A DNA stretch of 63,631 nt from Planctomycetales bacterium (GCA_027449865.1 DAIDKV010000134.1:1-63631); one strand, 5' to 3'; shown: positions 1,702 through 35,737, counted from the first letter of the stretch. The notes: a model not told the origin generated them from the letters alone. Program-made: numbers and translations.

Positions 1702-1707
1702 CCTGGC

Positions 1708-2117: not shown

Positions 2118-2145
2118 ACGCCGCACGCCCCTGGTGGTGCGGCGT
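2118..2145. other. 9-bp hairpin between the Cys-rich gene and the cusC-like gene
   Basis: ACGCCGCAC (2118-2126) pairs perfectly with GTGCGGCGT (2137-2145) around a 10-base loop. There is no T-run, so it is not a classical intrinsic terminator. It ends about 25 bases before the cusC-like start and could protect or attenuate the message. Confidence 0.4.
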
Positions 2146-2170
2146 GATTGCTTGCAACGCGAGAGGATAC

Positions 2171-3813: not shown

Positions 3814-3859
3814 TGGCCGGCCGGGGTAATAAGACATCGAGATCGATGGAGGACAATGT

Positions 3860-8300: not shown

Positions 8301-8474
8301 TTCTTCACCGAAGGCTACGGCTCAGACGTCATGCGCCGCATCGCCCTGCCGATGGTCGGCGGCATGGTGACAACGACGCTGCTCACGCTGATCGTCATCC
8401 CCGTCGTCTACTTCCTCTACGAGGGCCGGCGTCTGGAAGGCGCGTCCCGGCATGGGACGGATTCCACAACGTAA
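5307..8474 (+). CDS. cusA: CusA-type heavy-metal RND efflux pump
   Basis: 1055 residues, full length for the HME-RND family. It has an N-terminal membrane helix (HNALLVSVLALAILAGG), the porter domain with the family sequence DFEGQAPQIVENLVTYPLSS, the intramembrane helix with AIAVGAMVDASIVMVENAH that supplies the proton-relay Asp, and a second porter half with the CusA-like RLKPRSEWR region. This sequence type belongs to the monovalent-cation (Cu+/Ag+) branch rather than the divalent CzcA branch, judged by overall similarity. With CusC and CusB it would span the envelope and expel metal driven by protons. It is the last gene of the operon. Confidence 0.92.
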   Translation: MAGNLSHDPTKTHVARVIEWSVHNALLVSVLALAILAGGILALNRTPLDAIPDLSDTQVIIRTDFEGQAPQIVENLVTYPLSSAMLGLPNAKVVRGFSMFGASFVYLIFKDGTDLYWARSRVLEALSKIQSSLPAGAKARIGPDATGVGWVFQYAVVDKSDKHDLAQLRSLQDWFLRFELATVPGVSEVASVGGFVKEYQVLADPVKLKAFGLPLSRLRESIRASSQEAGGRVIEQAETEFVVRSKGYVTQASDLEKLVVKAEGGTPVYLSDVARVVEGPELRRGVTELNGEGEVVTGIIIMRPGQNALSVIKAVRERIDALKPGLPEGVDIVPVYDRSGLIEGSVGYLEHKLVEEAVVVALVCLVFLLHARSAFVAIVTLPLGVLAAFIVMSWQGITANIMSLGGIAIAVGAMVDASIVMVENAHRKLSELHPGAGREERRDALVLAAKEVGPGLFFSLLIITVSFLPVFALTGQSERLFAPLAFTKTYSMAAASILSVTVVPLLMLWLIRGRIRAEDANPINRFFIALYRPLLAAALDARGLTLALAGVLLASTAVPFWRSGSEFMPALYEGDLLYMPTTLPGVSITKAKEILQTTDRAIKQTPEVASVFGKAGQAETATDPAPLSMIETWVRLKPRSEWRPGMTTEKLIREMDTATRMPGLVNSWGYPIKIRLDMVTTGIRTPVGVKISGPDLNTIGRIAVQVEQAVKDIPGTRSAFADRVVGAKYLEIEPRRDALARYGLDMGTVQEVIATALGGMRIAEAVQGRERYGIMLRYDRPYRESIEDVGNILVAAEGQAQIPLGELADIRLAGGPQMIVSENARLNGWVFVDISGRDIGGYVKEAQKLVAERVKLPAGYSIGWSGQFEQMLEARARLDIAVPATIAIIFLLLILHFGRLDRTLMVMLSLPFGLVGGAWALYLAGYNFSVAVAVGFIALAGIAVETAVVMLIYLDHQVRQHPPKTTAELFDAVMHGAVLRVRPKLMTVSVILAGLLPIFFTEGYGSDVMRRIALPMVGGMVTTTLLTLIVIPVVYFLYEGRRLEGASRHGTDSTT

Positions 8475-8659
8475 GCTCGTGAAATTCCACGTTAAAACTT
8501 GACGCATACGGATAATGCTCATAGCGTCCCGCGACGGGTGCCATCCGGGTTCGGCGAGATGGCGCCCGGATCGCCTCCCGCATCAGATCGCGTGGCGGCG
8601 GAGCGGCACGCGCAGCACCTTCCGAGTCAGATACCGTGTAATACGCGTGGTTCGGATCT
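8475..8659 (+). other. Candidate oriT region upstream of the relaxase gene
   Basis: This 185-bp gap precedes a MobF relaxase gene. It holds an 11-bp stem with one G-T wobble: CGGGTGCCATC (8535-8545) and GATGGCGCCCG (8558-8568), loop 12. Just upstream is a short GACGC/GCGTC inverted repeat enclosing GCTCATAGCG (around 8517-8526), loosely like the R388-family nic core TCT-ATAGC. MobF origins usually lie next to the relaxase gene. The assignment is from position and structure only. Confidence 0.3.
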
Positions 8660-11317: not shown

Positions 11318-11735
11318 CATCCTGAAGCGCTACGCGACGCCCCGCGCGCAACTCGTCCCGCGCGACGTCGAGGCCGGAGAGGGCGACGATGCGGCGGAGG
11401 ACCTCGGCTGCTACGGCTGGCTGCGCGGGCTTCGGGAGCGCTCTCCGATGCTCGAGTTCCGCCGCAAGGATGGGCGGAGCGTCGCTTTCGATTATGCGCT
11501 GCTGCGCAAGGTCGAGTACGACCCGTCGGAGGGCATCACGCTGCATTTCGACGCGGAGATCGTCCGCATCGAGGGTCGCAATTTGAGCGAAGAGCCGGTC
11601 CCGGGCATCCAGCTGCTGCGGGGCCTCCACAACCACCGCGTCCCCTGGATCCGGGAACTGTGCGAGGGGGATGTCGTAGGGGCGGCGGAGGACATGCTCG
11701 TGATCGAGCGATTCGCATTCACCGAGGCGAAGTAG
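11307..11735 (+). CDS. Unrecognised 142-residue protein coupled to the relaxase
   Basis: It overlaps the relaxase gene by 11 bases and has ordinary acidic/hydrophobic codon content, so it is probably a real gene. The middle (MLEFRRKDGRSVAFDYALLRKVEYDPSEGITLHFDAEIVRIEGRN) reads as successive beta-strands, perhaps a small PH- or barrel-like fold. There are no membrane segments or catalytic motifs. Translational coupling to the relaxase suggests a mobilization accessory role, which is inferred from position alone. Confidence 0.7.
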   Translation: MSDSILKRYATPRAQLVPRDVEAGEGDDAAEDLGCYGWLRGLRERSPMLEFRRKDGRSVAFDYALLRKVEYDPSEGITLHFDAEIVRIEGRNLSEEPVPGIQLLRGLHNHRVPWIRELCEGDVVGAAEDMLVIERFAFTEAK

Positions 11736-11874
11736 CGTCTCGGTCGCCGCGTGGCCTTTCGTATCGCCTATTACCGAATCAGCTTCTACGATGGGGAGTT
11801 AGTCCGTCCGCGAGGACTCGGGAAAGGGAAGCCGGGACAGTTGTCTGCGGGAAACCTCTGGGGAGGGCCAGCAC

Positions 11875-12078
11875 ATGCCCCGCGATATCCGCGAGCTATC
11901 GCCCGAACAACTCGACCGCCTCCGCCGGACGATCGAGGCGACCATCGAAGACTGGCTCCAGGATTACGGCCTCCCGCCAGACAAGCCGCACCGGCAGCTG
12001 GTGAACCGCGTCGTCGGGGCGATCCTCGCCATGCACCAAAGCGATTTCCTGGTGGTCCAGCCGATCCATGATAGATAG
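11875..12078 (+). CDS. Small acidic/helical protein of unknown function
   Basis: 67 residues, MPRDIRELSPEQLDRLRRTI at the start, predicted helical and amphipathic (LRRTIEATIEDWLQDYGLPPDKPHRQLVNRVVGAILAMHQ). GGGAGGG lies upstream of the ATG. It is the last plus-strand gene of the relaxase block and lies convergent with the following minus-strand gene. No family is recognised. An overlapping frame starting near 11751 is less protein-like. Confidence 0.5.
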   Translation: MPRDIRELSPEQLDRLRRTIEATIEDWLQDYGLPPDKPHRQLVNRVVGAILAMHQSDFLVVQPIHDR

Positions 12079-12215
12079 CGCCGAGAGTGGCGGGGACCGC
12101 TTCAGCGTCTCACCAATCGGCATCGTGGCACGCCAGGACGATGGGCAGCGGATCCATTACCCGCAGCGGCCGGGGGCTGGTAGCTATCGGGCCTCATTGT
12201 GCTCGCATAGAAACG

Positions 12216-14084
12216 TCACATTGATGCGCCATGCCGTGACACGGCGGGCTTGGGTCGCAAGGACGGCAGCCTGTCGGACTCGACCATCTCCTTGAACTCT
12301 CCGTCCAGGCGCTGCATGAGCGTGTAGGTCCGAGGGAACATAAACGCGGCGGCCTTTTCGCCGAAGACCATCACGGTCTCGTCGATCCGCAGGAAGGCCT
12401 CCTCCAGCCGCGACGCTTCGGAATTGTAGGCGACGCCGGCGCCGTTCGCAGGCGTCGTTTCAGGGGCGGGGGCGGCGAAGCGCTCCAGCCAGGCGTCGTT
12501 GATCCGGCCAAGCCGCTGGAATGCCTCCGGCAATGCCTTGGCATCCGGCAGCTGCAGCGCGGCAGCGGCGTCTCGGATGACGCCCTGCTGCCCGGGGCCC
12601 GGATGCTCCTCCATGACCGCCGCCCTCAATTGCCGGTAATGCTCGCGGTCATGCGCGACGGCGGTCTTCAGCTCCGGGTGATTCACGCCGTCCATGCGAT
12701 CGGACCAGTAATGCCGATACTCGTGGCGCGCGACCTGGCCCAAACGCTCGCTGCCGAAATCGCTCAGCATGTCGTTGGACAGGGCGATGAAGGGATGCGC
12801 GTACGCGTCCCAGTGGTATCCGCCCTTGCGCATCAGGCCCTCGGGACCGGCCTCCGCCAGGAAGTCCCGGCTCTTGCCCGGGTCGCCTACGTCGACGGCG
12901 AGCTTCAGCCCGTCCTTGCAGCCCTGGCGGAGGATATGGGGCGGCACGCAGGCGACGATCTCTTCGGCGACCTCGGTCTCCGCTCTCGTCAGCGTCGATC
13001 CCTTGAAAGGGTTGCCCAGCCGCTTGGCGCAATTTGACAGGTGCATCAGGGCCCGCTCTCGCTTCCCCCGGGCGATCAACTCTGCGGTGGGGCGGCTCGC
13101 GTCGTTATGCAGCGCCTCCAGGCCCACGCTCAGGTTGCTGAGCTGCTGGGGGTCGTAACCCAGCGGCTTCAGATCCTCCATGAACCGCTTTATCACCCGG
13201 GCTGGCGCCCGCACGCTCTTCTCGAGATACTCCCGTGCGTCCAGCTCGAAGACCTTGCGCTCGGCCATGGCATCGTATTCGTCGCGGAGCAGCGCCGTCC
13301 TTTCCGCATCGTAAAGCCCGTATGCCCCTTTGGCGTCCTTCCCGGTCCGCTCGCTGATAACGCGGAGCACATCCCCCATGATGTTGTCGAGCACGAGGAC
13401 GCGCTCCGGGTCGTGTGACAGCCGTTCCCGCTCCGCCGCAGCCGCCCGGGACAGGCAGCGCTCCAGGCCCTCCCGGTCCACGGAATTATCGTCGCGGAAG
13501 GGGTTGCGGATCCGCTCTGCCTCGCACAGCGGCGCGAGCATGTCGCGGTAGATCCCGGCGACCCGCGGGTCCTGCGCCACGCCTGCCATGATCTGCTCGA
13601 CTTGACCGCGGATCATCTCGTCCGCGTCATGCAGCAGGCGGTGCTGCTCGGCACCGGCCCGCGCGGCAGCGTCGTTATAGAGCCGCTTGATCCCCGCCCC
13701 GGGCAGCGCCCTGTCGAGCCGGGAGACCATCTTGCGCTCGAAGCTCTCGGGAGTCATCTGGCCCAGCGCAATCTGCGGTTTCCGTTCCTCCAGGGATTCG
13801 GGGCCCAGGTGGTACTCGACGACGGCGATGGCCGACTCCTTGAACGGCTGCCTGCCGAGGACCCGGTAATTCTCGCCGTGCTCGACGATCAGCCTCCCGT
13901 CCTCGCCGAACCGCGCATGCTTCTCCTCCAGCAGGTCGCGGCCGTGGATGAACACGCCGTGCCGCGAATCGGGCACATAGGCGACATAATTGGAAAGCGT
14001 CGTGCCGTCCTGGTGCAGTGAAACGCCGATGGCGTTATCGGTCAGCATGATCTGCTTGAGGGTGGACGGGGAGGGGGTTGGCAT
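12216..14084 (-). CDS. 622-residue protein with HEYRH zinc-protease-like motif, unknown function
   Basis: A long soluble protein without signal peptide or membrane segments. The N-terminal 100 residues are beta-rich (DNAIGVSLHQDGTTLSNYVAY, FIHGRDLLEEKHARFG), the middle (120-380) is helical and rich in Arg/Glu, and near residues 450-462 is VARHEYRHYWSDR, an HExxH pattern (H454, E455, H458) followed by AHDREHYRQL, which could give a third ligand. HExxH is shared by many zincins but also occurs by chance, so activity is only suggested. It is divergent from the DUF932-side genes only by its AT-rich upstream region (14104-14155). I do not recognise the family. Its place beside the relaxase suggests a plasmid or ICE accessory function. 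Confidence 0.75.
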   Translation of the reverse strand: MPTPSPSTLKQIMLTDNAIGVSLHQDGTTLSNYVAYVPDSRHGVFIHGRDLLEEKHARFGEDGRLIVEHGENYRVLGRQPFKESAIAVVEYHLGPESLEERKPQIALGQMTPESFERKMVSRLDRALPGAGIKRLYNDAAARAGAEQHRLLHDADEMIRGQVEQIMAGVAQDPRVAGIYRDMLAPLCEAERIRNPFRDDNSVDREGLERCLSRAAAAERERLSHDPERVLVLDNIMGDVLRVISERTGKDAKGAYGLYDAERTALLRDEYDAMAERKVFELDAREYLEKSVRAPARVIKRFMEDLKPLGYDPQQLSNLSVGLEALHNDASRPTAELIARGKRERALMHLSNCAKRLGNPFKGSTLTRAETEVAEEIVACVPPHILRQGCKDGLKLAVDVGDPGKSRDFLAEAGPEGLMRKGGYHWDAYAHPFIALSNDMLSDFGSERLGQVARHEYRHYWSDRMDGVNHPELKTAVAHDREHYRQLRAAVMEEHPGPGQQGVIRDAAAALQLPDAKALPEAFQRLGRINDAWLERFAAPAPETTPANGAGVAYNSEASRLEEAFLRIDETVMVFGEKAAAFMFPRTYTLMQRLDGEFKEMVESDRLPSLRPKPAVSRHGASM

Positions 14085-14103
14085 GCGCTCGATGAGCCGA
14101 TCG

Positions 14104-14155
14104 GGACTAAAAATTAATGTAATATTATGTATTACTATTAATTAATAAATTCCAG
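14104..14155 (-). promoter_or_regulatory. AT-rich upstream region with inverted repeat
   Basis: About 50 bp of nearly pure A+T in GC-rich surroundings, immediately upstream of the 622-residue protein gene on the minus strand. It contains the inverted repeat GTAATA (14119-14124) / TATTAC (14130-14135). This is the likely promoter and perhaps an operator; the start codon of the gene is 20 bases away. Confidence 0.4.
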
Positions 14156-14274
14156 GAAAAAGGAGGGCCTCCCGCGAGCGCAGTGAGCGGCGAGCCGCAG
14201 CGGGGTAGGAAACGTACCTCGTGCGGCGGTAGGGGCGGCCGTCCGTGACCGCCCTCGACCGGTCATACCGGCCT

Positions 14275-15081
14275 TCAAACCCCCGTCAGGCTGGCCATCT
14301 CCTCCGCCAGTCGCCAGAGCGACCGGTTGATGCGGATGTCTGCCTCGACAGAGCGGACCGGCCGGGTGCGGATGCGCCGCCCGCTTGCGTTCCTGGCGCG
14401 AAGGTCGCCCTTGATCACGTTCTCCTGCACCCGGTTCAGCGTGTGCCAGAGGTCGGGCCGGTCGTCCTCGGCGCGGCACGGGGTGAGCAGCTGGGACGGC
14501 GTGATGCTCGGATTCGGCTTCAGCTCCGACGCGGCGGCGGCGAACGCCTCCTGCTGCGGCCTGGTCAGTCCGATCAGCTTCCACGCCCCGATCTTCTCCA
14601 GGGTCCGGGGCGTCTCCTCGACGACCTGGTAAGTCGCGTCGATGATCCTCTCCGCGAAGTCGCCTCCGCCCGCGTGCCTGACGCTGATGCTGCCGAAGTC
14701 CGCGGACTGCACGGTCAGGCCATTGCCGCACACCAGGCGGAAGATGCCGGCCATGAAGCGGTAGGCGGAGCTGCCATCATGCGAGTTGGTCAAGACCAGC
14801 TCGGGCGTCTCCTGGCCGACCGCCAAGGGCTCGACGTGGTCGGCATGCCGGAAGCGGATCAGGTGGCGGGTGAAGTCGCCCTTCTCCGGCGTGCGGGTGC
14901 GGGACTGCTGGGCCTTCACGGGGAAGAACCCGCGCTCGCGGAGGATGTCCACGACCTCGATGGTCGGGACCATGCGGTAGCGGCCCGACATGCGGTGCCA
15001 GGGCTCGGAGGCGAACACGCTCGGGGCGAGGCGTCGCAATTCGTCGCGGTTGAGGACGGAGGGAACGGTCGCGGTCGTCAT
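14275..15081 (-). CDS. DUF932 family plasmid/phage-type protein
   Basis: 268 residues starting MTTATVPSVLNRDELRRLAP. The sequence follows the DUF932 pattern: SVFASEPWHRMSGRYRMVPTI near the start, then RTPEKGDFTRHLIRFR, LVLTNSHDGSSAYRFMAGIFRLVCGNGL in the middle, and HTLNRVQENVIKGDL near the end. Family members are common on plasmids, ICEs and phages, and their biochemical role is not established. An open frame extends upstream to 15417, but the extension is Arg/His-rich and does not resemble the family, so I take the ATG at 15081. Confidence 0.85.
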   Translation of the reverse strand: MTTATVPSVLNRDELRRLAPSVFASEPWHRMSGRYRMVPTIEVVDILRERGFFPVKAQQSRTRTPEKGDFTRHLIRFRHADHVEPLAVGQETPELVLTNSHDGSSAYRFMAGIFRLVCGNGLTVQSADFGSISVRHAGGGDFAERIIDATYQVVEETPRTLEKIGAWKLIGLTRPQQEAFAAAASELKPNPSITPSQLLTPCRAEDDRPDLWHTLNRVQENVIKGDLRARNASGRRIRTRPVRSVEADIRINRSLWRLAEEMASLTGV

Positions 15082-15146
15082 GGGGTTGGGCTCCGTAAGC
15101 TCGTGGTGAGGGACGAGGGGAATGGGCCTCCGTGCCCCGGATCGGT

Positions 15147-15356
15147 TCAGGCGGTGGCAGCCTCGGGGTGGTCGATCGGGGTCAGCAGAATGGGGAGGTC
15201 TTTCGCCTTCCTGATGGCGGTGTGGTTGACGTTCCGCCACCAGTGGAGGCCGTTGTAGCGCCACCCGGCGGCGGTCAGGGCCTTTCGCGTCGCGGCGTCG
15301 GGGCGGGCGGTGAAGGCGAGCTTCTCGGTGTGCGATGTGCGGTGGACGATCTGCAT
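15147..15356 (-). CDS. Small conserved-looking protein upstream of the DUF932 gene
   Basis: 69 residues: MQIVHRTSHTEKLAFTARPD, then ATRKALTAAGWRYNGLHWWRN with a WRYNGLHWWR core, ending in LLTPIDHPEAATA. The pattern 'LTAAGWRYNGLHWWRN' resembles short single-domain proteins found beside DUF932 and relaxase genes on mobile elements. It is on the same strand as the DUF932 gene, 65 bases upstream, so probably co-transcribed. Function unknown. Confidence 0.6.
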   Translation of the reverse strand: MQIVHRTSHTEKLAFTARPDAATRKALTAAGWRYNGLHWWRNVNHTAIRKAKDLPILLTPIDHPEAATA

Positions 15357-15599
15357 GGCTGGTCTCCTGATGCTTCGTTGCCTGTTGGCGGGTCATGTCG
15401 TCACGCGCGACATTCAACCGGCCAACGGCGGCACCAGGTGCCGGATTGGAGTAGAATGGGTGAATTCGTCACAGGGACGAGCGGAGCGGCTGCACACGGA
15501 GCGCAGCGACACGGAAGCTGCGGGAGAGAGCGCCCTTGACGAAGAGGGCGACGCCCTTCCGGACAGCGTGGTCTGCCGGAGTGGTGTTGATTCTGCCGC

Positions 15600-19289: not shown

Positions 19290-20306
19290 TCAGTATTTGA
19301 TGCGTTCGATCTCGTCGAGCGTGACCTGGTCGTTGGTCCGGTCGTAGAGCTTGGTCGTGCGCGGGCTGGCATGGGCGGCCATCTGTTGGGCCTTCTCCAG
19401 CGTGCCGTCGTGCTCCAGGTAGTTGGTGATGCCGGTGGCGCGGAAGCTGTGGCAGCCGATCGGCGTCCTGATCCCCGCCTTCTGCGCCCGCCTGCGGACC
19501 ATCCGCCAGACATCCGCGGTCGACATCGGGCTCGCAGTCAGGCCGCCGCCCCTGCGCGTGGCTGTGCGGAAGAGGGGCCCGCGCCGATCGGCCTGGATCC
19601 CCGCGGCCTCGACATAGGCGTCGAGGAACTCCTCGAGTTTGTGGTGCGCTGGCATCTCGTGCTGCTTGCCGCCCTTTTCCTGGAGGCGGAGCCACATGCG
19701 TTTGCCCTGCGGGTAGTAGTCCTCGACCGTCATGGTGACGACGGCACCGACTCGCGCGAAGGTGAAGAACATGGCCGCGATGACGGCCCGATCCCGCTTG
19801 TCCACCACGGAGACCGGCGCGATGCTCTCGAACAGGGTCCGCGTCTCCTCGGGCGAGAGGATCGGCGTCTTCCCCTTGGTGACGACGTGCTTCGGCCCGC
19901 GGACGGCGTGCGCGGGGTTCGCCGGCACGACCTGGCCGGTCACGAGCCAGTCGAAGAGCATGCGGACCGTGGCCAGGTGCTGCTTCACGGTCGGCTTGGA
20001 GTGCGTTTTCCCCAAGGCCTCGATATAGGCCGCGACCGTCACGGGCCGGATGTCCTTCAGGGCGTGGATGCCACGGCCCTCGCACCAGCCCAGGAAGGAC
20101 ATGGCGTTGCGGAGATAGGCCCGGCGGGTGTGCGGGTTGCGGATCTGAGCGGCGAAATACTCGACGAACCTCGTGACGGCGTCCTCGCCGGCGGAAGTCA
20201 GGATCGCGGGCACGCGTATTGTCGGGGCTGGATCCGCGGCCGGCAGCAGGTGCTCCGGGATGAGGGCGACCCCCTTCGGGTCAGGCGGCGAGGACTGCGA
20301 TACCAT
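19290..20306 (-). CDS. Tyrosine recombinase (XerC/D-like, site-specific)
   Basis: 338 residues with an N-terminal SAM-like core-binding domain (about 40-135) and a catalytic domain. Catalytic residues visible: R185 in FTFARVGA, K211 or K214, H286 and R289 in CHSFRATGI, H312 in AAHASPRTT, and nucleophile Y321 in KLYDR. It could excise or rearrange DNA, or resolve dimers. It overlaps the vapC gene by 26 bases and lies last in a vapB-vapC-int operon, an arrangement that keeps the recombinase with an addiction module. It is not next to a tRNA or other visible attachment site. Confidence 0.88.
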   Translation of the reverse strand: MVSQSSPPDPKGVALIPEHLLPAADPAPTIRVPAILTSAGEDAVTRFVEYFAAQIRNPHTRRAYLRNAMSFLGWCEGRGIHALKDIRPVTVAAYIEALGKTHSKPTVKQHLATVRMLFDWLVTGQVVPANPAHAVRGPKHVVTKGKTPILSPEETRTLFESIAPVSVVDKRDRAVIAAMFFTFARVGAVVTMTVEDYYPQGKRMWLRLQEKGGKQHEMPAHHKLEEFLDAYVEAAGIQADRRGPLFRTATRRGGGLTASPMSTADVWRMVRRRAQKAGIRTPIGCHSFRATGITNYLEHDGTLEKAQQMAAHASPRTTKLYDRTNDQVTLDEIERIKY

Positions 20307-20658
20307 ACTGTGACAGGACCGGGTTGCGGGAGACGAGCGTCATCCCCTCCGCGAGCGCCTGTGCGACCAGCAGCCGATCGAAGGGGTCGTTGTGAACGGG
20401 GGGCAGGTTGCGCAGGGCCGCATCGTGGGAGATCTTCAGGGGCAGTTCATGGAAGCGGCAGGTGGCCAGCATGTCGCCGGGCGGCGCGGTCACCCTGACC
20501 TTTCCCCGCGCCTGCTTCAATGTGATCTCCAGCGTTGTCGCGGCGCTGACGAAGACGAAATTGCGCGGGTTGGCGATGGCGGCTCTCGCCTCGCGGGAGA
20601 GCTGGGCCGGGTCGTCGAGCCATTCTATATATATGATCGTGTCGAGGAGGAGCTTCAC
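20281..20658 (-). CDS. vapC: PIN-domain toxin of VapC type
   Basis: 125 residues. PIN-domain acidic residues are in place: D6 in KLLLDTIIYIEWL, E44 in TTLEITLKQ, D91 and D94 in HNDPFDRLLVAQA. These would bind Mg2+/Mn2+ for ribonuclease activity against tRNA or rRNA. The start overlaps the antitoxin gene by 4 bases (ATGA), typical of vapBC pairs, and the end overlaps the recombinase gene. Dormancy or plasmid/ICE stabilisation is the known role of such pairs. Confidence 0.9.
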   Translation of the reverse strand: MKLLLDTIIYIEWLDDPAQLSREARAAIANPRNFVFVSAATTLEITLKQARGKVRVTAPPGDMLATCRFHELPLKISHDAALRNLPPVHNDPFDRLLVAQALAEGMTLVSRNPVLSQYGIAVLAA

Positions 20659-27210: not shown

Positions 27211-28143
27211 ATGGCCCCGGAACTGATTCAGAAGGTCCCGATCGCGGAGATCGAGTTGGTCCCGCTCAACAGGAAGTCGATCGACGAGGAGGCCCTCGCC
27301 GGCCTGATCCAATCCTTCCAGGAGGTCGGGATGCTCTATCCCCCCCGCCTCACGCGCAAGGGGGGGAAGTACATCCCGGCGGACGGGTTCCATCGGGTGC
27401 TCGCCGCCATGAAGCTCGGCTGGGAGGAGATCCTGGCGATCATCGAGGAGAAGCCCCTGGACGAGGGCGAGCTGATCCAGAAGGGCCTGATCGCCAACTC
27501 GCACCGGATCGCGAACACGCCGCTGGAGAAGGGCGAGGCGATCAAGCGGCTCATGGATGTCACGGGCTGGAACGCCTCTACGGTGGCCGACAAGCTCGGA
27601 TTCTCGAACGCGACCGTCTCGCGGCTGCTCTCGCTCCTGGAACTGCCCGAGCCGATCCGCGAGCGGGTCCATCGCGGCGAGATTCCGCTGAGCGCGGCGA
27701 GCGAGCTGGCGCGGGTCAAGGATGGGGAGGAGCAGGCGGAGCTGGCCGCGAAGGTGGCCTCCGGCAGGCTCACGCGGGACGCGCTCAGCGGGTCGCTCAA
27801 GTCGAGGAAGAACGGCACCGCGCCCGAGGCTCCGGCCGCCGGGGTGGCTCCCTCCCCATCCCGGGTTACGGCCAAGCTGGCCGGCGGGCGGGCGGTCACC
27901 GTGGCTGCGGATTCGGTCGACCTGGACGCCTTCATCGCCGTGCTTGAGGACGTCCTCGGCAGGGCGCGCAAGGCGCGAACCCAGGGGATCGAGCTCGGCA
28001 CCTTCGCCAAGATGCTCCGCGACCAGGCGGGTGGGCCGAAGCGTAATCGCCGGTCCGAGGGGCAAGGCATTCTCGCGAACAGTTGCAACACGGCCATCGG
28101 GGGGCGGGCCCATGATGTGGCGGCGCAGGGTGGAGATGCCTGA
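27211..28143 (+). CDS. parB: ParB-like partition/segregation protein
   Basis: 310 residues. ParB/Spo0J N-terminal domain: PIAEIELVPLNRKSIDEEALAGLIQSF, then GKYIPADGFHRVLAAMKLGW (the G-x-R-R-like box is GFHRV here), then the HTH region WNASTVADKLGFSNATVSRLLSLLELPEPIRE. The C-terminus is long, Ala/Arg-rich and not clearly a dimerisation domain. AGGAGAAAGAGC precedes the ATG at 27211; the frame is open upstream but the earlier codons are atypical. No parA is next to it. In this locus it may regulate or help maintain the element rather than segregate a plasmid. Confidence 0.85.
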   Translation: MAPELIQKVPIAEIELVPLNRKSIDEEALAGLIQSFQEVGMLYPPRLTRKGGKYIPADGFHRVLAAMKLGWEEILAIIEEKPLDEGELIQKGLIANSHRIANTPLEKGEAIKRLMDVTGWNASTVADKLGFSNATVSRLLSLLELPEPIRERVHRGEIPLSAASELARVKDGEEQAELAAKVASGRLTRDALSGSLKSRKNGTAPEAPAAGVAPSPSRVTAKLAGGRAVTVAADSVDLDAFIAVLEDVLGRARKARTQGIELGTFAKMLRDQAGGPKRNRRSEGQGILANSCNTAIGGRAHDVAAQGGDA

Positions 28144-29599
28144 GCGGCGGGAGCCGTGGGGGTTGGCCGAGCCGCTGCTGGCACTGTCCGAGGCGGACCC
28201 CTGGACCCTCGCGGATGCCTGCGAGGGCACGCTGGTGCTCGGGGCTACCGGCAGCGGCAAGTCCTCGGGCAGCGGGCGGACGCTGGCGCTCGCCTTCCTG
28301 CGGGCGAGGTTCGGCGGCCTGGTGCTCACCGCCAAGCCCGACGAGCGGGCCGTCTGGGAGGCGTATTGCCGCGAGGCGGGGCGCGAGGACGACCTGCTCG
28401 TCTTCGGCCCCGACCGCGCGCTTCGCTTCAATTTCATCGACCACGAGCTGAAGCGGCCCGGCCTCGGGGCCGGGCTCACCGAGACCATCGTCAACCTCCT
28501 CTCGACCGTCCTGGAGGTCGCGGAGCGCGGCACGGGCAGCGGCCAGGGCGGGCGCGAGGACGAGGGCTACTGGCGGCGGGCGATGCGGCAGCTCATGCGC
28601 AACCTGGTGGACCTGCTGGTCCTCGCCAAAGGGAGCCTCTCCATCCCGGACCTCTACCGGCTGATCGTCTCGGCGCCGACCTCCCTCGAAGAGGCGCGGT
28701 CGCCCGAATGGAAGCGGGATTCCTTCTGCTACGCCTGCCTCAAGCAGGCCGACGAGCGCGAGAAGACCCCGCGTCAGCTGCGTGATTACGAGATCGTGGC
28801 CGACTACATGATGCTCGAATACCCCGCGCTTTCGGACAAGACCCGCTCGGTGATCGTCTCGACCTTCACCAGCATGATCGACGTGCTGAACCGCGGCATC
28901 CTCCGCGACCTCTTCTGCGGCGAGACTAACGTGACGCCGGGGGCGGTGGAGTCGGGCCGGGTGCTGGTGATCGACCTGCCGGTCAAGGAGTTCGCCGAGG
29001 TCGGCGTCTTCGCGCAGGTGCTGTGGAAATACGTGTTCCAGCGCTCCATCGAGCGTCGCGACACAGCCGCCAATCCCCGGCCGGTCTTCTTCTGGGCGGA
29101 CGAGGCCCAGAATTTCGTGACATCCTACGACATGCAGTTCCAGACCACCGCCCGCAGCTCGCGAGTGGCCACGGTGCTGCTCAGCCAGAACCTCTCGAAT
29201 TTCTACGCCGCGCTCGGCGGCGGCGACCAGGGCAAGGCCCAGGCGGATTCGCTCCTGGCGAACCTCAACACCAAGGTCTTCCACGCCAATGGCGACCCGG
29301 TCACCAACGAGTGGGCGGCCACGCTCATCGGCCGCACCCGGCAGTTCCTCATCAACGGCGGCAACAGCTACCAGACGCCCGATTGCACGGCCCTCCCCTG
29401 GATGCGGTCGCTCCCCTCGGTCAACGCGGGCATCTCGGAGACCTTCGAGTTCGAGGTCCAGCCGGGCGCGTTCACGGCCCTGCGCCGCGGAGGCTTCGCC
29501 AGCGGCGGCGAGGTCGACGGCATCGTTTTCCAGGGCGGCAGGCGGTTCCGCGCGACCGGCCGGTCGTGGATCCGCCGGACGTTTCTGCAGCGCGGTTAG
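28112..29599 (+). CDS. traD: TraD/VirD4-like type IV coupling protein
   Basis: 495 residues. Walker A GATGSGKSS at 44-52, Walker B VFFWADEAQNF near 325-335, and the TraD/TraG family central sequence KRDSFCYACLKQADEREKTPR. It has no clear N-terminal membrane helices, unlike many T4CPs, so it may be the cytoplasmic type or rely on the membrane protein encoded next. It would present the relaxase-DNA complex to a secretion channel. The start is uncertain: M at 28112, 28115 and 28136 are possible, all overlapping the end of parB. Confidence 0.88.
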   Translation: MMWRRRVEMPERREPWGLAEPLLALSEADPWTLADACEGTLVLGATGSGKSSGSGRTLALAFLRARFGGLVLTAKPDERAVWEAYCREAGREDDLLVFGPDRALRFNFIDHELKRPGLGAGLTETIVNLLSTVLEVAERGTGSGQGGREDEGYWRRAMRQLMRNLVDLLVLAKGSLSIPDLYRLIVSAPTSLEEARSPEWKRDSFCYACLKQADEREKTPRQLRDYEIVADYMMLEYPALSDKTRSVIVSTFTSMIDVLNRGILRDLFCGETNVTPGAVESGRVLVIDLPVKEFAEVGVFAQVLWKYVFQRSIERRDTAANPRPVFFWADEAQNFVTSYDMQFQTTARSSRVATVLLSQNLSNFYAALGGGDQGKAQADSLLANLNTKVFHANGDPVTNEWAATLIGRTRQFLINGGNSYQTPDCTALPWMRSLPSVNAGISETFEFEVQPGAFTALRRGGFASGGEVDGIVFQGGRRFRATGRSWIRRTFLQRG

Positions 29600-29679
29600 C
29601 GGACGGTTTATGCCGTCGTTCATCGTCGGCGCGAGGTTCCCCGCGAGCCTCGCACCATCCATCAGATCGGGAGTTTTCC

Positions 29680-30264
29680 ATGCCCAACCCGTCATCGCAG
29701 GCCCCCCACGGGGCCGGGAGGCTCACATTCGCGGAACTCCTCTTCATCCCCCGCGCCCTCGCCTTCTCGGTCGAGGTGTTCCTTCACACCCGGATGGGCG
29801 AGCGCTACGCCGACGTCCAGGCCGCGGCCGTCCTCGTGATCCTTCCCATTTACGCGGTGCTGTGGGACGGGCGGGGGGTCCGGCCGCTTTTCCTCTTCCT
29901 GCTGGCCTATGTCGCGATGTGCGCGCGCAACCGCGTCGAGGACCTCCTCCGCCGCGGCCGCGCGCCCTCCGGCCACTCCCGCTACACGGGCGAGCCCCGC
30001 CTCATGGCGCGGTTCCCCGGGCGCACCGAGTTGGAGGTCAAGCGCTTCTGCGAGCCCGCCCTCGTGTTCTGGCTGGGCGCCGCAGTCTGGCTGTTCACGC
30101 GCCCGCTCGGCGTGTACCTGATGCTCTCGGCCGCCGCCCTGTTCGTCACGGTGACGGCCTCGGAACTCATCGACCGGCAGCAGCTGCTCGACCTCAACGA
30201 CCTGATGATCGAGAACCAGCAGCGCGCGGAGCGGTTCCGCGCCATGCGTGGGGACCAGCCTTGA
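29680..30264 (+). CDS. Polytopic membrane protein of unknown function
   Basis: 194 residues with about four hydrophobic segments: VLVILPIYAVLW, PLFLFLLAYVAMC, ALVFWLGAAVWLF and LGVYLMLSAAALFVTVTA. Short basic loops between them (NRVEDLLRRGRAPSGHSRY) suggest the cytoplasmic side. I begin at the ATG at 29680; the open frame upstream is antisense-like. It follows the coupling protein and could be its membrane partner, an inference from position and from the apparent lack of membrane helices in that protein. Confidence 0.65.
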   Translation: MPNPSSQAPHGAGRLTFAELLFIPRALAFSVEVFLHTRMGERYADVQAAAVLVILPIYAVLWDGRGVRPLFLFLLAYVAMCARNRVEDLLRRGRAPSGHSRYTGEPRLMARFPGRTELEVKRFCEPALVFWLGAAVWLFTRPLGVYLMLSAAALFVTVTASELIDRQQLLDLNDLMIENQQRAERFRAMRGDQP

Positions 30265-30278
30265 AATGGAGGTGATCG

Positions 30279-30581
30279 ATGTCGAGAGAGCAGGATCCCA
30301 AGCCCAAGATCGGCGCCGGGCACGCCTCAGCCATGTGGCGCCAGGGCCTGCGCGAGCTGCGGGCGGCCGTCTATCCCGAGTCGAACGTCGCGCAGCCGCC
30401 GGAGTACGGCGCCTACGGCACCAAGACGCCCGGCGAGGTCGCGCACGACAGGCGGAGCGAAGCCCGCGACCCCGAAGACGAGAAGGCGACGGGCCGCGGC
30501 TCGGTCCTGGAGAGCCGCTCGCGCCAGGCCGAGGCCCGGTCGGAGCGGTCCGACCGCGGCAAGGGGATGGAGCGCGGCTGA
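30279..30581 (+). CDS. Small hydrophilic protein
   Basis: 100 residues, MSREQDPKPKIGAGHASAMW at the start, then mostly charged (RSEARDPEDEKATGRGSVLE; RSRQAEARSERSDRGKGMERG). Probably disordered. TGGAGGTGATCG gives a good ribosome site. Tightly packed between two membrane protein genes, so probably a real member of the cluster. No family recognised. Confidence 0.5.
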   Translation: MSREQDPKPKIGAGHASAMWRQGLRELRAAVYPESNVAQPPEYGAYGTKTPGEVAHDRRSEARDPEDEKATGRGSVLESRSRQAEARSERSDRGKGMERG

Positions 30582-30731
30582 CCGCCCGTCCCGGCGACCT
30601 TGCCCACAATCGGCCCCGCGCGCATCCGCCTGCGGGGCCCCGTCCGACATGCGCGCCCCGTGAGACTTACAGGGCGAAATCCGGGCACGGAGGCCCCCTG
30701 TTCTTACCCCAGAACCCGAGGAGTCGCGACG

Positions 30732-31910
30732 ATGACGACCGCAACCACAGTGCTGAAGACACAAGGCCGCCTCCGGCCGAATCGGGTCGCGCTCGGCGTG
30801 ATCGCGGGCCTTGTCCTCGCGGCGGGCGGATACGTCCTCTACCCGCGCTACGACCCGGTCCGCCTCGCGGCCTGGCGGAAAGTCGAGCCCCGGCTCGCCG
30901 AGGCGGAGTCGGGCTCGAAGGCGGACGTCCACGAGGCCGTGTCTCAGGTCCAGGCGTTCTTCGCCGAGCGACGCCAGGGCGCCCGCGTCTTCGCCGCGGA
31001 CCTGCTCTCGCTCGAGGGCAAGTGGGCCTACGTCAGGGACTATTACGACCCGGGCAGCCACAACCGCTATATCGAAGACGCCTTCGTGCGGCGCATCTTC
31101 AACCCCGACGAGCTGAGGGCGATCGTCGACTCCGCGGCCTCGGGCTGCATCGGCAAGCTCCAGGGCCGCGAGAACCGGCTCCTCGTGGATATCCGCGCCG
31201 ACCTCTCCGACGGCGATCCGGCCGCGCCCGGCCTCCTGCCCGCCCTGCAGGACGAGGCGGCATTCCGCAGGCAGTACGAGGCCATGCTCGAGAGCGTCAT
31301 GCCCGTCGTCTCGCGCGACATCGGCTTCAGCGTGACGAGGGAGGCGGTCTCCTTCGTGGGCTCGGAGATCGCCGCCCAGATCGTCGCGCAGATCGCGCAG
31401 GCGCTGGCCGTCCGGCTCGGCGTCTCCGGAGGCATCCTCGGGACGGGCGCCTCCTCGGGGACCGTGACCTTCGGCATCGGCCTCGTCGTCGGGATCCTGG
31501 TGGACATGGCCCTCGACTGGGCGATCCGCGAGGCCGGATACGACCCGGAAGGGGCGATCGCCGCCAAGGTGGAGGAGACGCTCGGCCGCCTCGAGTCCAC
31601 GATCCTGGACGGCCCGTCCGCCGCCGATTTCCCCGACTACCCGTCACCCCACCCTTTGACGGACGAGATCGCGCGCATCCTGATCCCGGCCCGCGGGGCC
31701 CCCGAGCCTTCCGCCGAGGAGGAAGCGGTCAGGCGCGAAGTTGCCGTGAAGTATTTCGCGGCCAGGGACCGGTGGTTTCTGGCCAAGGCGGCCCACGAGG
31801 ACCCCGGGAGCCTCGGCCTGCGGAACCGGCTCAATAGGCTGAGCGAGGCCCGCGCCCGGCTGCGCGAGACGGCGCTCAGGACGCTGATCCTGGAAGGGGG
31901 TGCAAAATGA
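30732..31910 (+). CDS. Membrane protein with Gly-rich hydrophobic core, unknown function
   Basis: 392 residues. One N-terminal membrane segment (RVALGVIAGLVLAAGGYVLY, 18-37) followed by a helical region. Residues about 210-262 (GSEIAAQIVAQIAQALAVRL, then GVSGGILGTGASSGTVTFGI and GLVVGILVDMALDWAI) are hydrophobic and very Gly-rich, like glycine-zipper membrane inserts. The C-terminus is helical and charged. It overlaps the next gene by 4 bases (ATGA), so the two proteins are probably made in fixed ratio. No family recognised. Confidence 0.7.
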   Translation: MTTATTVLKTQGRLRPNRVALGVIAGLVLAAGGYVLYPRYDPVRLAAWRKVEPRLAEAESGSKADVHEAVSQVQAFFAERRQGARVFAADLLSLEGKWAYVRDYYDPGSHNRYIEDAFVRRIFNPDELRAIVDSAASGCIGKLQGRENRLLVDIRADLSDGDPAAPGLLPALQDEAAFRRQYEAMLESVMPVVSRDIGFSVTREAVSFVGSEIAAQIVAQIAQALAVRLGVSGGILGTGASSGTVTFGIGLVVGILVDMALDWAIREAGYDPEGAIAAKVEETLGRLESTILDGPSAADFPDYPSPHPLTDEIARILIPARGAPEPSAEEEAVRREVAVKYFAARDRWFLAKAAHEDPGSLGLRNRLNRLSEARARLRETALRTLILEGGAK

Positions 31911-32782
31911 GGCGCCTCCTCCCCCTCGCCCTGTTGGTCGCCCTGGCCGCGGCTCCCGGGGCGGTCCGTGCCGACATCCGCTCCAAGGCGGCCCGCGAGG
32001 CGGCCGAGTACGTCCTGAAGAAGTTCGGCCGGACGGCGGTGCGCGAGGGCACCGAGACGCTCGCCGAGCGCATCGCCGCCAAGGCCGCGCGCCACGGCGA
32101 CGACGTCTTCGCGGCCGTCCGAAAGGTAGGCCCGAAGGCCCTGTCCCTGGCCGACGAGGCCGGGGAGCAGGCCCCCGCGGCGCTGCGGCTGCTCTCCCGG
32201 CACGGCGACGACGCGACCGTCTGGGTCCTGAGGCGCCCGGGGGGTATGAAGCTCTTCGCCCGCTACGGCGACGACGCGGCGGAGGCCCTGGTCAAGCACA
32301 AGGGCCTGGCCGAGCCGGTGATCGAGCGGCTGGGCGGCCCGGCGGTGGACGCGCTGCGCGCCGTCGGCCCGCAGGGCGGGCGCCGGCTCGCCATGATGGC
32401 CCAGGAGGGCGGCGAATTCGCCGCAATCGGGCGCACGCCCGAGCTGCTCGGCGTGATCGGCCAATACGGCGACCCGGCCATGGACTTCATCTGGCGGAAC
32501 AAGGGGGCGCTGGCGGTCGGGACCACGCTCACCGCCTTCCTGGCCCAGCCCGGGGCGTTCATCGACGGCACCAACCGGCTGGCCGGCACCGTCGCCGAGA
32601 ACGCCGTCAAGCCGGTTGTCCAGGAGGCGGCCGGCGCCCTCGCCTGGCTGCTCCGCGCGGTGACCGCCCTGGCGGTCCTCGTCCCGGCCGCGCTCGGACT
32701 CCTCGCGGTCCGCTACCCGCGGGCGGCGGTTACGGCGGGCAGAGCGGCCTTCGTCCACATGGCCAAGATGCGCGGTTCGTGA
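31907..32782 (+). CDS. Secreted/anchored protein with repeated R-H/Y-G-D motif
   Basis: 291 residues. Signal peptide (LLPLALLVALAAAPGAVRA). Four copies of a short motif: RHGDD at 62, RHGDD at 98, RYGDD at 119 and QYGDP at 186, each followed by a hydrophobic helix (VFAAVRKVG; ATVWVLRRPGG; AAEALVKHKG; AMDFIWRNKG). A C-terminal membrane segment (LLRAVTALAVLVPAALGLLAV, about 248-268) would anchor it. Coupled by ATGA overlap to the preceding membrane protein. Function unknown. Confidence 0.65.
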   Translation: MRRLLPLALLVALAAAPGAVRADIRSKAAREAAEYVLKKFGRTAVREGTETLAERIAAKAARHGDDVFAAVRKVGPKALSLADEAGEQAPAALRLLSRHGDDATVWVLRRPGGMKLFARYGDDAAEALVKHKGLAEPVIERLGGPAVDALRAVGPQGGRRLAMMAQEGGEFAAIGRTPELLGVIGQYGDPAMDFIWRNKGALAVGTTLTAFLAQPGAFIDGTNRLAGTVAENAVKPVVQEAAGALAWLLRAVTALAVLVPAALGLLAVRYPRAAVTAGRAAFVHMAKMRGS

Positions 32783-32839
32783 GGCTAAAGCTTCTCGGGC
32801 GGGTCCACGGCCCGTCCAACATCCCCGAGGATATCCAGC

Positions 32840-33022
32840 ATGTTCGCAGAATCGAAGCCCGCCGACCCGGCGGTCCACCAGCTCAGCATCCGCATCGCGC
32901 GGCGCTGCGTGTTCATCATCCAGGCGGTGCTGCGCGAGGAGGAACGCGGCGACGCACTGCGGGAGTTCTACCGGGTGTGCCGGGAGGAGCTCGACAAGCC
33001 CCAAACCGTGCCGGAGGTGTGA
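32840..33022 (+). CDS. 60-residue protein, unknown function
   Basis: MFAESKPADPAVHQLSIRIA at the start, then RRCVFIIQAVLREEERGDAL, an amphipathic helix with charged ends. It ends 1 base before the next start codon, so the two are an operon. No family recognised. Confidence 0.55.
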   Translation: MFAESKPADPAVHQLSIRIARRCVFIIQAVLREEERGDALREFYRVCREELDKPQTVPEV

Positions 33023-33023
33023 C

Positions 33024-33356
33024 ATGCCCGACAAGATGTTCTGGTCCGACGAGGAAATCCGGGCACTCGGCGCCGAATGGGAGGCCGATGAGCACGCCGC
33101 CAGGGTCCGCGACTATGGCGAGGCCGACGCCGCCACGTATCAGGCCAGGATGGCCGAGGCCTACCGGTTCCGGGCGGAGGCGATCGGCCCTTCGCCCCCC
33201 GATCCGCCCCCGGTCGGCGATGAGGAGCTCGACCGCATCATCACCGAACTGGAGCGGGGGTGGCGCGAGCAGGCCAAGTCCGACAGCGTCCTGGAAAAGG
33301 CCTCCGCCCGCCTGGCCGCCCGGCCCAAGGAGCCGGATGATGGGCGGGAGCGGTGA
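33024..33356 (+). CDS. 110-residue acidic protein, unknown function
   Basis: MPDKMFWSDEEIRALGAEWE, rich in Glu/Asp/Ala, Pro-rich middle (PSPPDPPPVGDEELD), then a helix (RIITELERGWREQAKSDSVLEKASARL). Starts 1 base after the previous stop. Predicted soluble and helical. No family recognised. Confidence 0.55.
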   Translation: MPDKMFWSDEEIRALGAEWEADEHAARVRDYGEADAATYQARMAEAYRFRAEAIGPSPPDPPPVGDEELDRIITELERGWREQAKSDSVLEKASARLAARPKEPDDGRER

Positions 33357-33379
33357 GGATAGCACGAGGTTAGAAGCAC

Positions 33380-33757
33380 ATGACCGAAGGCCCACACGCC
33401 GCACCCAGCGCCCTGGAGACCCGGCTCCGCGCGATCGACGCCGTCTACCGCCGTTACGGGCGGGACGGCCTCAAGGATTACCCGCTCGGCGACGTGACCC
33501 TGCTCCTTGAGTCGAAGCGGCTGGAGCTGCGCGACGCGCCGGCGGGCCGGGAGGTCGGCGAGCCGCAGAGGGCGGCGAACCGCCTGCTGGAGCTGGAGAT
33601 CCGGGACCTGTCCGGGCATGTCGACTCCCTGCTGTCCGGGGCGGGCCTGTCCTCGCTCCGTCGGACCGAGTCGCGGCTGCAGGCGCGTGCCGACCGCCGA
33701 GAGTCCGCCGGGCAGCAGCCTCCGAAGCCGGGCCGGGGCTTCGAACGCGGGGGCTGA
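33380..33757 (+). CDS. 125-residue helical protein, unknown function
   Basis: ALETRLRAIDAVYRRYGRDG and LLLESKRLELRDAPAGREVG suggest two helices, then a helix LLELEIRDLSGHVDSLLSG and a disordered basic tail (RADRRESAGQQPPKPGRGFERGG). It lies in the same block as the preceding two small genes and just upstream of the excisionase gene. Confidence 0.5.
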   Translation: MTEGPHAAPSALETRLRAIDAVYRRYGRDGLKDYPLGDVTLLLESKRLELRDAPAGREVGEPQRAANRLLELEIRDLSGHVDSLLSGAGLSSLRRTESRLQARADRRESAGQQPPKPGRGFERGG

Positions 33758-34072: not shown

Positions 34073-35656
34073 ATGGCCTCGATCTTCAAGCTGAGCCGCG
34101 ACAAGGGGAAGAAGAACCGCCCGTACTACATCCAGTATTTCGACCACGAGGGGAAGCGGGTCACCGCGAAGGGCTTCACCGACAAGGGCCTGACCGAGCA
34201 GCTCGCCGCCAAGCTCGAGAACGAGGTGATGCTCCGCAAGCGGGGGATGATCGACCCCGCCCAGGAGCGCCTCCTGGCCATCAAGCAGGCCCCGATCGAC
34301 GGGCATCTCGACGCCTTCGACCGCTCGCTCGCCAACAACACGGCGAAGCACCGCAAGCTCACCATGACCCGCGTCCGCCGCGTCGTCGCAGGCTGCGGCT
34401 TCCGCACGCTCGCCGAGATGGACGGCGAGAAGGTGGTGGAATGGCTGAACGCCGTCCGCGACGCGGAGGACATGGGGGCCCGCACCTACAACCACTACCT
34501 GCAGGCGGCCGACGCCTTCGGCAAGTGGCTGGTGGCGACCAAGCGGCTGCCCTCGAACCCGCTGGCCGGCATGGAGCGGCTCAACAGCGAGACGGACGTC
34601 CGGCACAAGCGGCGTGCGCTCGCGACGGAGGAGGTGTCCCGGCTGGTGGAGTCGGCCCGGTCGAGCGGCGTGGAGGTCCAGGGCTACGACGGGGAGTTGC
34701 GGGCGCGCGCCTACCTGGTGAGCTTCTTCACGGGACTTCGCCGCCAGGAGATCGGCAGCCTCACCCGCCGCTCCTTCCGGCTCGACGACCCCCAGCCGAC
34801 GGTCACGGTCGAGGCCGCGTGCTCGAAACACCGCCGCAAGGACGTCCTGCCCCTGCACCCGGAGCTCGTCGCCCTGGTGCGTGAATGGGTGCGGGACCTC
34901 GGCCCGGACGACCTCCTCTTCCCCCGCATCGAGCGGAAGAAGACCTGGCTCATGGTGAAGAAGGACCTGGAGCGGGTCGGCATCCCCTACGAGACGCCCG
35001 ACGGCATCGCCGACTTCCACGCCGCCGGCCGGCACAGCCACATCACGGGGCTGGTCCGCTCGGGGGCGTCGATCATGGAGGCGAAGGAGCTCGCCCGGCA
35101 CGCCGACATCCGCCAGACCGCGAAATACACCCATATCGGGATGAAGGACCGGGCGGAGGCCCTGGGGAACCTGCCGTCCCCTTTCGCATCAGCGGGCGTT
35201 GATCGTCTGCACTATGTCTGCATTCCGGGCGGCGCCGCGAGACACCGCCTGGCGGCGGATGGCAACGACGGCGATTCCGACGGCACCCCGGAAAACGAAC
35301 AAGCCCCGGCGGGGCCGGGGCTTGCGTCGTCTGTTGTCGCAAACTGTCACCAGTTAACAGTTTGCGGCGGAGTGGAGGCGGCGGGAATTGCACCCGCGTC
35401 CCGAGAAGCTCTGATGACGGCCTCTACGTGCGTAGCCGATCTTTTGATTGTCGGCCTCGGGGCCCCGGTCGGCAGGGTCCCGTTCAGCTTATCCAACTAT
35501 GAATTTAAATCGAGCAGCAGTCGGAAGTTAGGCTCGATCGATCCCGAATTGGCGTCCCCGGCCGTACCTCTCGGGAGAAGGCACGTCGCGAGGCCGTTGC
35601 TGCTGTTCAGGCAGCGAGACGGAGACCAACAGTGTTGTTGGCAGTTATGGTTTTAG
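34073..35656 (+). CDS. int: Tyrosine integrase adjacent to ssrA; open frame continues through the attachment site
   Basis: Catalytic residues visible: R223 in TGLRRQEIGSL, K256 in HRRKDVLPLH, H316 and R320 in DFHAAGRHSHIT, H343 in ARHADI and nucleophile Y352 in AKYTHIG. The second box has one more residue between His and Arg than the usual HxxR. The domain ends near residue 371 (35186). The frame has no stop before ssrA, and residues from about 434 are translated from the strand opposite ssrA, ending inside it at 35656. In the circular form the tail would differ. The integrase probably recombines the 3' end of ssrA. Confidence 0.85.
   Translation: MASIFKLSRDKGKKNRPYYIQYFDHEGKRVTAKGFTDKGLTEQLAAKLENEVMLRKRGMIDPAQERLLAIKQAPIDGHLDAFDRSLANNTAKHRKLTMTRVRRVVAGCGFRTLAEMDGEKVVEWLNAVRDAEDMGARTYNHYLQAADAFGKWLVATKRLPSNPLAGMERLNSETDVRHKRRALATEEVSRLVESARSSGVEVQGYDGELRARAYLVSFFTGLRRQEIGSLTRRSFRLDDPQPTVTVEAACSKHRRKDVLPLHPELVALVREWVRDLGPDDLLFPRIERKKTWLMVKKDLERVGIPYETPDGIADFHAAGRHSHITGLVRSGASIMEAKELARHADIRQTAKYTHIGMKDRAEALGNLPSPFASAGVDRLHYVCIPGGAARHRLAADGNDGDSDGTPENEQAPAGPGLASSVVANCHQLTVCGGVEAAGIAPASREALMTASTCVADLLIVGLGAPVGRVPFSLSNYEFKSSSSRKLGSIDPELASPAVPLGRRHVARPLLLFRQRDGDQQCCWQLWF
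35301..35323 (-). terminator. 10-bp GC hairpin downstream of ssrA
   Basis: AAGCCCCGGC (35301-35310) and GCCGGGGCTT (35314-35323), loop GGG. Read on the minus strand, it lies about 50 bases beyond the tmRNA 3' end and is followed by a T-containing stretch (TTGTTCGTTTT), which fits a terminator for ssrA. The plus strand would also form it. Confidence 0.55.
35339..35365. other. 9-bp inverted repeat beside the ssrA 3' end, candidate att core
   Basis: GCAAACTGT (35339-35347) and ACAGTTTGC (35357-35365) around 9 bases. It sits 7 bases from the ssrA discriminator base. Inverted repeats of this size around a 6-9 base overlap are typical of tyrosine recombinase core or arm sites, so it may be a binding site of the integrase. 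Confidence 0.4.
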
Positions 35657-35737
35657 TCGGCTTTTTACGAGGCCTGCTGACCAACCTCGGCACGCCACCT
35701 GTCACCTCGGACATCCGGTCGATCCTGGTTCGCCCCC
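35373..35737 (-). ncRNA. ssrA: Transfer-messenger RNA
   Basis: 365 nt. The 5' end GGGGGCG (35731-35737 complement) pairs with CGCCTCC near the 3' end (with one G-U), followed by discriminator A; CCA is not encoded. The T arm GCGGGTGCAATTCCCGC is perfect (35381-35397). The tag reading frame (35642-35607) encodes ANNTVGLRLAA then TGA, starting GCC. A promoter lies upstream at 35781-35810. It rescues stalled ribosomes together with SmpB, whose gene is 110 bases upstream. The 3' end coincides with the end of the accessory element. Confidence 0.93.

Follow-up and report, generated by a model that had tools for sequence, protein, structure and literature searches.

A ParB and coupling-protein gene run in a tmRNA-integrated planctomycete element: a probable mobilization module with a separable envelope pair

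Nine genes on one strand of DNA from a Planctomycetales bacterium raise the question whether they form a DNA-transfer machine, an element-stability module, or parts of something larger. They occupy positions 27211-33757 of DAIDKV010000134.1 (GCA_027449865.1), a stretch of 63,631 nucleotides analyzed at its full length and called the window below, and they encode ParB, a type IV coupling protein (T4CP), a polytopic membrane protein, a hydrophilic protein, two predicted envelope proteins of 392 and 291 residues (P392 and P291), and three small proteins. The original prediction, made from the sequence alone, saw in the run a candidate for a single undescribed transfer or maintenance module. Our analysis points instead to the right-hand part of a plasmid-like integrative mobilizable element (IME), inserted in the transfer-messenger RNA (tmRNA) gene and equipped with a MobF relaxase, a T4CP without a transmembrane domain (TMD), and an accessory envelope pair. 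We regard this reading as probable, though short of firm. The transfer part of the prediction is thereby kept, as a mobilization module of an integrative element, but the single block is not, because the run and its flank consist of three separable parts: a mobilization core, the P392-P291 pair, and a tmRNA-specific xis-int module.

Gene order and packing of the run

The cluster is present as it had been described, ending at xis-int. Reading frames and matches over curated cut-offs give nine open genes on the plus strand that overlap by no more than 8 bases or are separated by no more than 150, followed by xis and int (Table 1). When sought in other planctomycete elements, the order recurs nearly gene for gene in three genomes (G306, G332, and G360, as far as fetched) and is thus not due to chance. 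Gene order and the membrane-protein counts given below come from a simple gene caller. Homologues standing alone and unlinked, named beforehand as evidence against a common module, were found for parts of the run: ParB, T4CP, and the 194- and 100-residue genes occur without the remaining genes in five loci (L085, L086, L089, L091, and L093), and the P392-P291 pair stands alone in a set of loci described below.

Table 1. Positions of the features discussed, in window coordinates, with the evidence for each.
Feature	Position	Strand	Evidence or remark
Conserved block just upstream of the MobF gene	8462-8528	+	Alignment of MobF upstream regions (window, G306, G332)
MobF relaxase-helicase, 885 residues	8660-11317	+	NCBIfam MobF 193.7 bits (cut-off 100); relax_trwC 148.9 (cut-off 145.5)
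142-residue gene after MobF	11307-11735	+	Relatives adjoin the relaxase elsewhere, MOBP, MOBQ, and MobA/L plasmids included
XerD-like recombinase and PIN/VapC-like gene, accessory stability unit	19290-20658	-	Same pair in G306
ParB	27211-28143	+	TIGR00180 82.1 bits (cut-off 58.45); HTH_ParB 56.5 (cut-off 22.6)
T4CP, class I; 8-bp overlap with the ParB gene	28136-29599	+	Pfam TraG-D_C 28.5 bits (cut-off 22)
194-residue polytopic membrane protein	29680-30264	+	Directly downstream of planctomycete class I T4CPs
100-residue hydrophilic protein	30279-30581	+	Relatives in 17 loci, mostly adjoining the T4CP or its membrane partner
P392, 392 residues	30732-31910	+	Alignment, AlphaFold2
P291, 291 residues; 4-bp overlap with the P392 gene	31907-32782	+	Alignments, AlphaFold2
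60-residue small protein	32840-33022	+	Relatives in 11 loci
110-residue small protein	33024-33356	+	Relatives in 5 loci
125-residue small protein	33380-33757	+	Sole relative in G332
Xis, AlpA-like excisionase	33770 (or 33806) to 34000	+	HTH_17 and Phage_AlpA over cut-off; PHROG excisionase
Tyrosine integrase of the tmRNA site	34073-35656	+	XerC/XerD-type matches below family cut-offs
tmRNA (ssrA), integration target	35372-35737	-	ARAGORN
att core, at the 3' end of the tmRNA and marking the element's right end	35374-35395	+	22-base core repeat

Integration at the tmRNA gene

The right end of the element is marked by a 22-base attachment (att) core within the tmRNA gene, a site that the original prediction had overlooked, as it had the MobF relaxase gene. 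The smpB gene, identified from its translation, comes next after the tmRNA gene. Two further exact copies of the core lie on another contig (C178) of the same draft genome. Segments of 39.0 kb (G314), 49.1 kb (G306), and 115.5 kb (G332) in other genera, each with the same integrase beside its own tmRNA gene, are flanked on both sides by the identical repeat, and in a further genome with related genes elsewhere (G368) the core is single-copy. These observations define a family of tmRNA-integrating elements. An IME is expected to have an integrase and an excisionase together with direct att repeats at its specific site, as found here, the other repeats of this genome being on another contig. About 35.4 kb of the element lies in the window, if everything up to the contig start belongs to it. 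The left end of this copy is on unplaced contigs, and no overlap was found by which C178 could be joined to the window's left end.

The backbone common to the complete relatives in G306 and G314 comprises an RPA replication initiator, ParA, the anti-restriction protein ArdC, MobF, ParB, the T4CP, the P392-P291 pair, xis, and int. By analogy, RPA, ParA, and ArdC resemble the gene content of plasmids that enter cells by conjugation, and we counted them as consistent with an IME. The cargo of the window's element includes metal-efflux and arsenic-type genes, recognized from their translations, and NicO, assigned by Pfam; judged from these predicted products, it is a heavy-metal-resistance element.

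The integrase reading frame crosses the att core into the antisense strand of the tmRNA gene, as it also does in G306, G314, and G332, so that host DNA encodes the C-terminus, which should be altered by excision.

Relaxase and candidate transfer origin

The relaxase expected of an IME is encoded on the same element, 16 kb to the left of the mobilization core. This MobF protein has an HLHAH metal motif and a Walker A motif, and relatives of it are present in the complete tmRNA elements. Matches over the cut-off numbered 46 and came from 17 of the 31 genomes searched; they were found in 14 of the 16 genomes in which the P392-P291 pair is linked to a T4CP, compared with 3 of the 15 in which it is not. 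The conserved block just upstream of the gene is a candidate origin of transfer (oriT) or promoter on sequence grounds; its degenerate core pattern was found in only two fetched loci, both of them MobF upstream regions. The 142-residue product of the gene after MobF has no Pfam match and is possibly a relaxosome accessory protein.

A coupling protein without a transmembrane domain

The T4CP of the window has intact Walker A (GATGSGKS) and Walker B (WADEA) motifs, and hydropathy analysis gives it no transmembrane (TM) segment, the N-terminal TMD included. We refer to T4CPs without a TM segment as class I and to those with their own N-terminal TM segment or hairpin as class II. A gene for the 194-residue protein follows most planctomycete class I T4CPs (L055, L056, L058, L068, L074, L085-L089, and L091-L093; L090 is an exception), whereas it is never found where a class II T4CP lies beside the pair (L018, L057, L059, L062, L070, L072, L075, L077, L082, and L084). 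On this distribution, the simplest reading is that the 194-residue protein probably supplies the membrane domain that the T4CP lacks.

A T4CP without a TMD that has a separate small membrane partner is of an already known kind. T4CPs lacking a TMD are listed in a review (PMC7434980), some of them paired with small membrane proteins, and the same source describes TraG-J pairs, whose TraJ member is about 200 residues long and spans the membrane with up to five helices. The window's T4CP and, by its gene position, the adjoining 194-residue protein match this TMD-lacking category, which supports the IME reading. In TMD-lacking T4CPs such as TraJ and TraI of pIP501 (PMC7434980) and in TraG-J pairs alike, the coupling ATPase works, or is believed to work, together with a small membrane protein, and the TraJ-like partners resemble the 194-residue protein in size and predicted helices. 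Differences are also evident: pIP501-type T4CPs and TraG-J are distant in sequence, TraG-J coupling proteins keep a TMD of their own, and the window has no adjoining operon for mating-pair formation (MPF).

Search for a VirB channel

The statement in the original prediction that the run shows no VirB4, VirB6, or pilin-type gene holds. The prediction had also considered that standard VirB genes might lie just left of the first base, leaving the block as cargo; no such genes came to light, since the genome has no VirB4 or VirB10 match and no VirB gene was seen in the related elements that are complete between att repeats. VirB4 (PF03135) was absent from all 49 searched genomes carrying the T4CP or the pair, and it was present in 3 of 397 genomes of the taxonomic class. 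VirB10 likewise gave no family match in the element-bearing genomes searched; its one match among 40 genomes was in G471, which is also VirB4-positive and thus serves as a positive control for searches in the class. These searches were made on draft genomes, with VirB4 and VirB10 models that cover the classes of type IV secretion systems unequally. Consistent with these results, only four proteins with TM-like segments are encoded by the complete 39-kb element and six by the 49-kb element, including members of the pair and the T4CP or its partner. The lack of MPF genes in this genome and the few membrane proteins of these relatives agree with an IME. No MPF system or VirB4 of the kind that defines an integrative conjugative element (ICE) was found, the left part of this copy being on unplaced contigs.

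Matches to VirB4_CagE below the cut-off were dismissed, as the ones examined, where assignable to a family, were HerA-like or FtsK ATPases. The only one in this genome is a HerA-like ATPase in a defense-like island; contig C31 (L152) carries, at 6380-15415, a HerA-like ATPase together with helicase-like genes, an arrangement resembling a defense island. An involvement of prepilins or type IV pili was also set aside, prepilin motifs not being enriched (6 in 1.16 Mb).

The P392-P291 pair is both linked to coupling proteins and found without them

The P392 and P291 genes adjoin on one strand in all 32 distinct loci compared. A T4CP gene is found no more than 2 kb from the pair, in the same orientation, in 17 of these loci, which represent three gene orders and all of which also have ParB within 4 kb. 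The P291 tree has three groups (support 98/94, 99/96, and 98/97) in which loci of the two T4CP classes are mixed, which indicates that the T4CP type was exchanged while the pair was retained and so argues for a functional link. The other 15 loci have the pair among housekeeping chromosomal genes, with no T4CP and no fixed neighbors. As 12 of these 15 genomes lack a MobF match and 11 lack a T4CP match, the pair must also have a role outside transfer. P291 occurs in 45 of 297 genomes of the class, with more distant relatives in Akkermansia and in records labeled Bacteroidetes. One locus (G299, L083 9439-12051) has the pair directly beside smpB, with no transfer gene nearby.

Structure prediction for the products of 30732-32782, which the original prediction had proposed, gave a model for each protein and no significant structural match. 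From alignment and AlphaFold2, P392 is predicted to have an N-terminal TM anchor and a helical bundle, together with a hydrophobic Gly-rich hairpin that is conserved; the mean predicted local distance difference test (pLDDT) score is 76, the hairpin itself being modeled with low confidence. P291 is predicted, with a mean pLDDT of 90.7, to comprise a signal sequence, alpha-solenoid repeats, and a C-terminal TM helix. On these models, both are probably envelope proteins of an uncharacterized kind. Neither window protein has a Pfam or NCBIfam family over cut-off or a PADLOC match, and neither has a significant Foldseek or PDB-sequence match. The best comparison of P392 with alpha-pore-forming and dynamin-stalk proteins (VIA Z 10.5) is below the level that is meaningful for helical bundles, and TALE-like, dynamin-stalk, and pore-toxin resemblances of the two proteins were judged to be common helical arrangements. 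A repeat segment of P291, around residues 180-200, looks like aureocin-like bacteriocins: 8 of 22 members of the family are matched by Pfam Bacteriocin_IIi (best E 2.6e-5), and NCBIfam aureocin_A53 gives 20.2 bits, below its cut-off of 27.

Possible modes of action

In the IME reading, Xis and Int would excise the element at the tmRNA core repeat, as the observed att repeats and open genes suggest. By what is known of its family, MobF would then nick an oriT near its own gene and stay bound to the strand. The 194-residue protein would hold the T4CP at the inner membrane, where the latter would receive the relaxosome and pump the strand, and ParB may have partition or relaxosome functions. Given their linkage and predicted topology, P392 and P291 could form an inner-membrane-anchored, mostly periplasmic unit that aids whichever T4CP the element encodes, for instance by connecting it with outer layers or by stabilizing the mating pair. 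The mating channel would be provided by a rare helper or by something unrecognized rather than by the element. Several points weigh against this scheme. With VirB4 missing from nearly all searched genomes of the class, a conventional helper is hard to find. The scarcity of MobF and T4CPs in genomes with an unlinked pair means that the pair must also act outside transfer, the mobilization core also exists without it, and neither protein of the pair has a confident homologue in the structure searches.

The loci in housekeeping surroundings suggest a different explanation, namely that P392 and P291 are an envelope, stress, exclusion, or defense pair that stands beside the T4CP by chance in an otherwise ordinary IME. 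The failure of PADLOC, Pfam, and NCBIfam to assign the window's proteins a function fits such cargo as well, but linkage that is always close, co-oriented, and accompanied by ParB, across three gene orders and both T4CP classes, makes so strict a partner unusual for cargo, and we consider this explanation unlikely. The same persistence behind two classes of T4CP can be taken further: together with the T4CP and its 194-residue partner, the pair might constitute a complete or near-complete DNA conduit that replaces the VirB channel in planctomycete MobF/T4CP elements. The contrast between frequent MobF and almost absent VirB4 and VirB10, the small number of TM-like proteins in the complete elements, and the hydrophobic Gly-rich hairpin on a helical bundle would agree with such a machine. 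It is called into question by MobF/T4CP elements without the pair (L086, L088, and L089), by unlinked pairs in genomes mostly without relaxase and T4CP, and by the lack of an apparent outer-membrane component, and we hold it to be quite unlikely.

A role in plasmid maintenance, with ParB and the envelope-anchored proteins positioning or partitioning the excised form and the T4CP-like ATPase serving segregation rather than transfer, would account for the ParB gene found with every T4CP-linked pair and for the RPA and ParA genes of two complete relatives. The same backbone, however, holds MobF and ArdC genes, and on small plasmids relatives of the T4CP have relaxases of several families in their vicinity, so that we see little room for this explanation. 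Gene loss from an ICE can also yield a relaxase and a T4CP without MPF, but the genes of the block are all intact and conserved across genera, their conserved order suggests purifying selection, and the VirB-less design is common to many relatives, small plasmids included; a degenerate ICE is accordingly the most improbable of the origins considered. The mobilizable integrative plasmid thus remains the reading that we favor. Relaxases and T4CPs are common in these planctomycetes and VirB4 is nearly absent from the class; either rare helpers mobilize a large pool of elements, or DNA moves between cells through an envelope machine not described so far. The element offers a compact gene set for testing these alternatives; related elements carry resistance and defense cargo in several genera.

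Comparison with known systems

Putative streptococcal IMEs and the plasmid CloDF13 (MOBC1) encode a relaxase and their own coupling protein without MPF genes (PMC5704250, PMC7434980). The window shares this combination, and with the IMEs also an integrase. In contrast to their MobC relaxase and VirD4-type T4CP, it has MobF, a TMD-less T4CP, ParB, and the P392-P291 pair; with MobF in place of the MobC that characterizes MOBC1, it falls outside that group.

Closer in gene content is the Singulisphaera plasmid pSINAC03, which like the window has ParB, a T4CP, the P392-P291 pair, and MobF, but whose T4CP is of class II, with TM segments of its own. Synteny of the Singulisphaera pSINAC03 and Paludisphaera pPALBO2 family and its probable chromosomal integration have been reported (PMC5352709); in a search of that paper's text, neither conjugation nor relaxase came up. 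Among cultured relatives, the module is present in Tautonia sociabilis GM2012 (L096) and, on pSINAC03, in Singulisphaera acidiphila DSM 18658. Class I T4CPs also occur with a relaxase on the same plasmid, and with no annotated VirB genes, in Nitrosospira plasmid 1, Runella pSP2_3, Skermanella pSM-4, Acuticoccus p4, and K2D pK2D_1. On several of these small plasmids the gene after the T4CP encodes a small protein with TM segments; they differ from the window in lacking the P392-P291 pair and, in some cases, in their relaxase family. Kinship between the 194-residue protein and the Nitrosospira protein downstream of its T4CP was rejected, as the two have no sequence similarity.

Other genes of the element and its genome

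The accessory stability unit of recombinase and VapC-like genes listed in Table 1 has a counterpart on pSINAC03, which also carries a recombinase and VapC system. Between MobF and this unit, the minus strand encodes a 622-residue protein (12216-14084) that matches nothing in Pfam, PADLOC, or NCBIfam and lacks a relative among the loci compared, and a DUF932 protein (14275-15081), similar-looking genes being found near MobF in G306 and G332. On contig C178 (L004), a 7.7-kb type III-A CRISPR stretch at 480-8225 (Cas10/Csm1, Csm2, RAMP, and a Card1-like effector) is flanked by the two tmRNA att core copies, with no integrase seen there; it is possibly a second, dependent island at the same tmRNA site.

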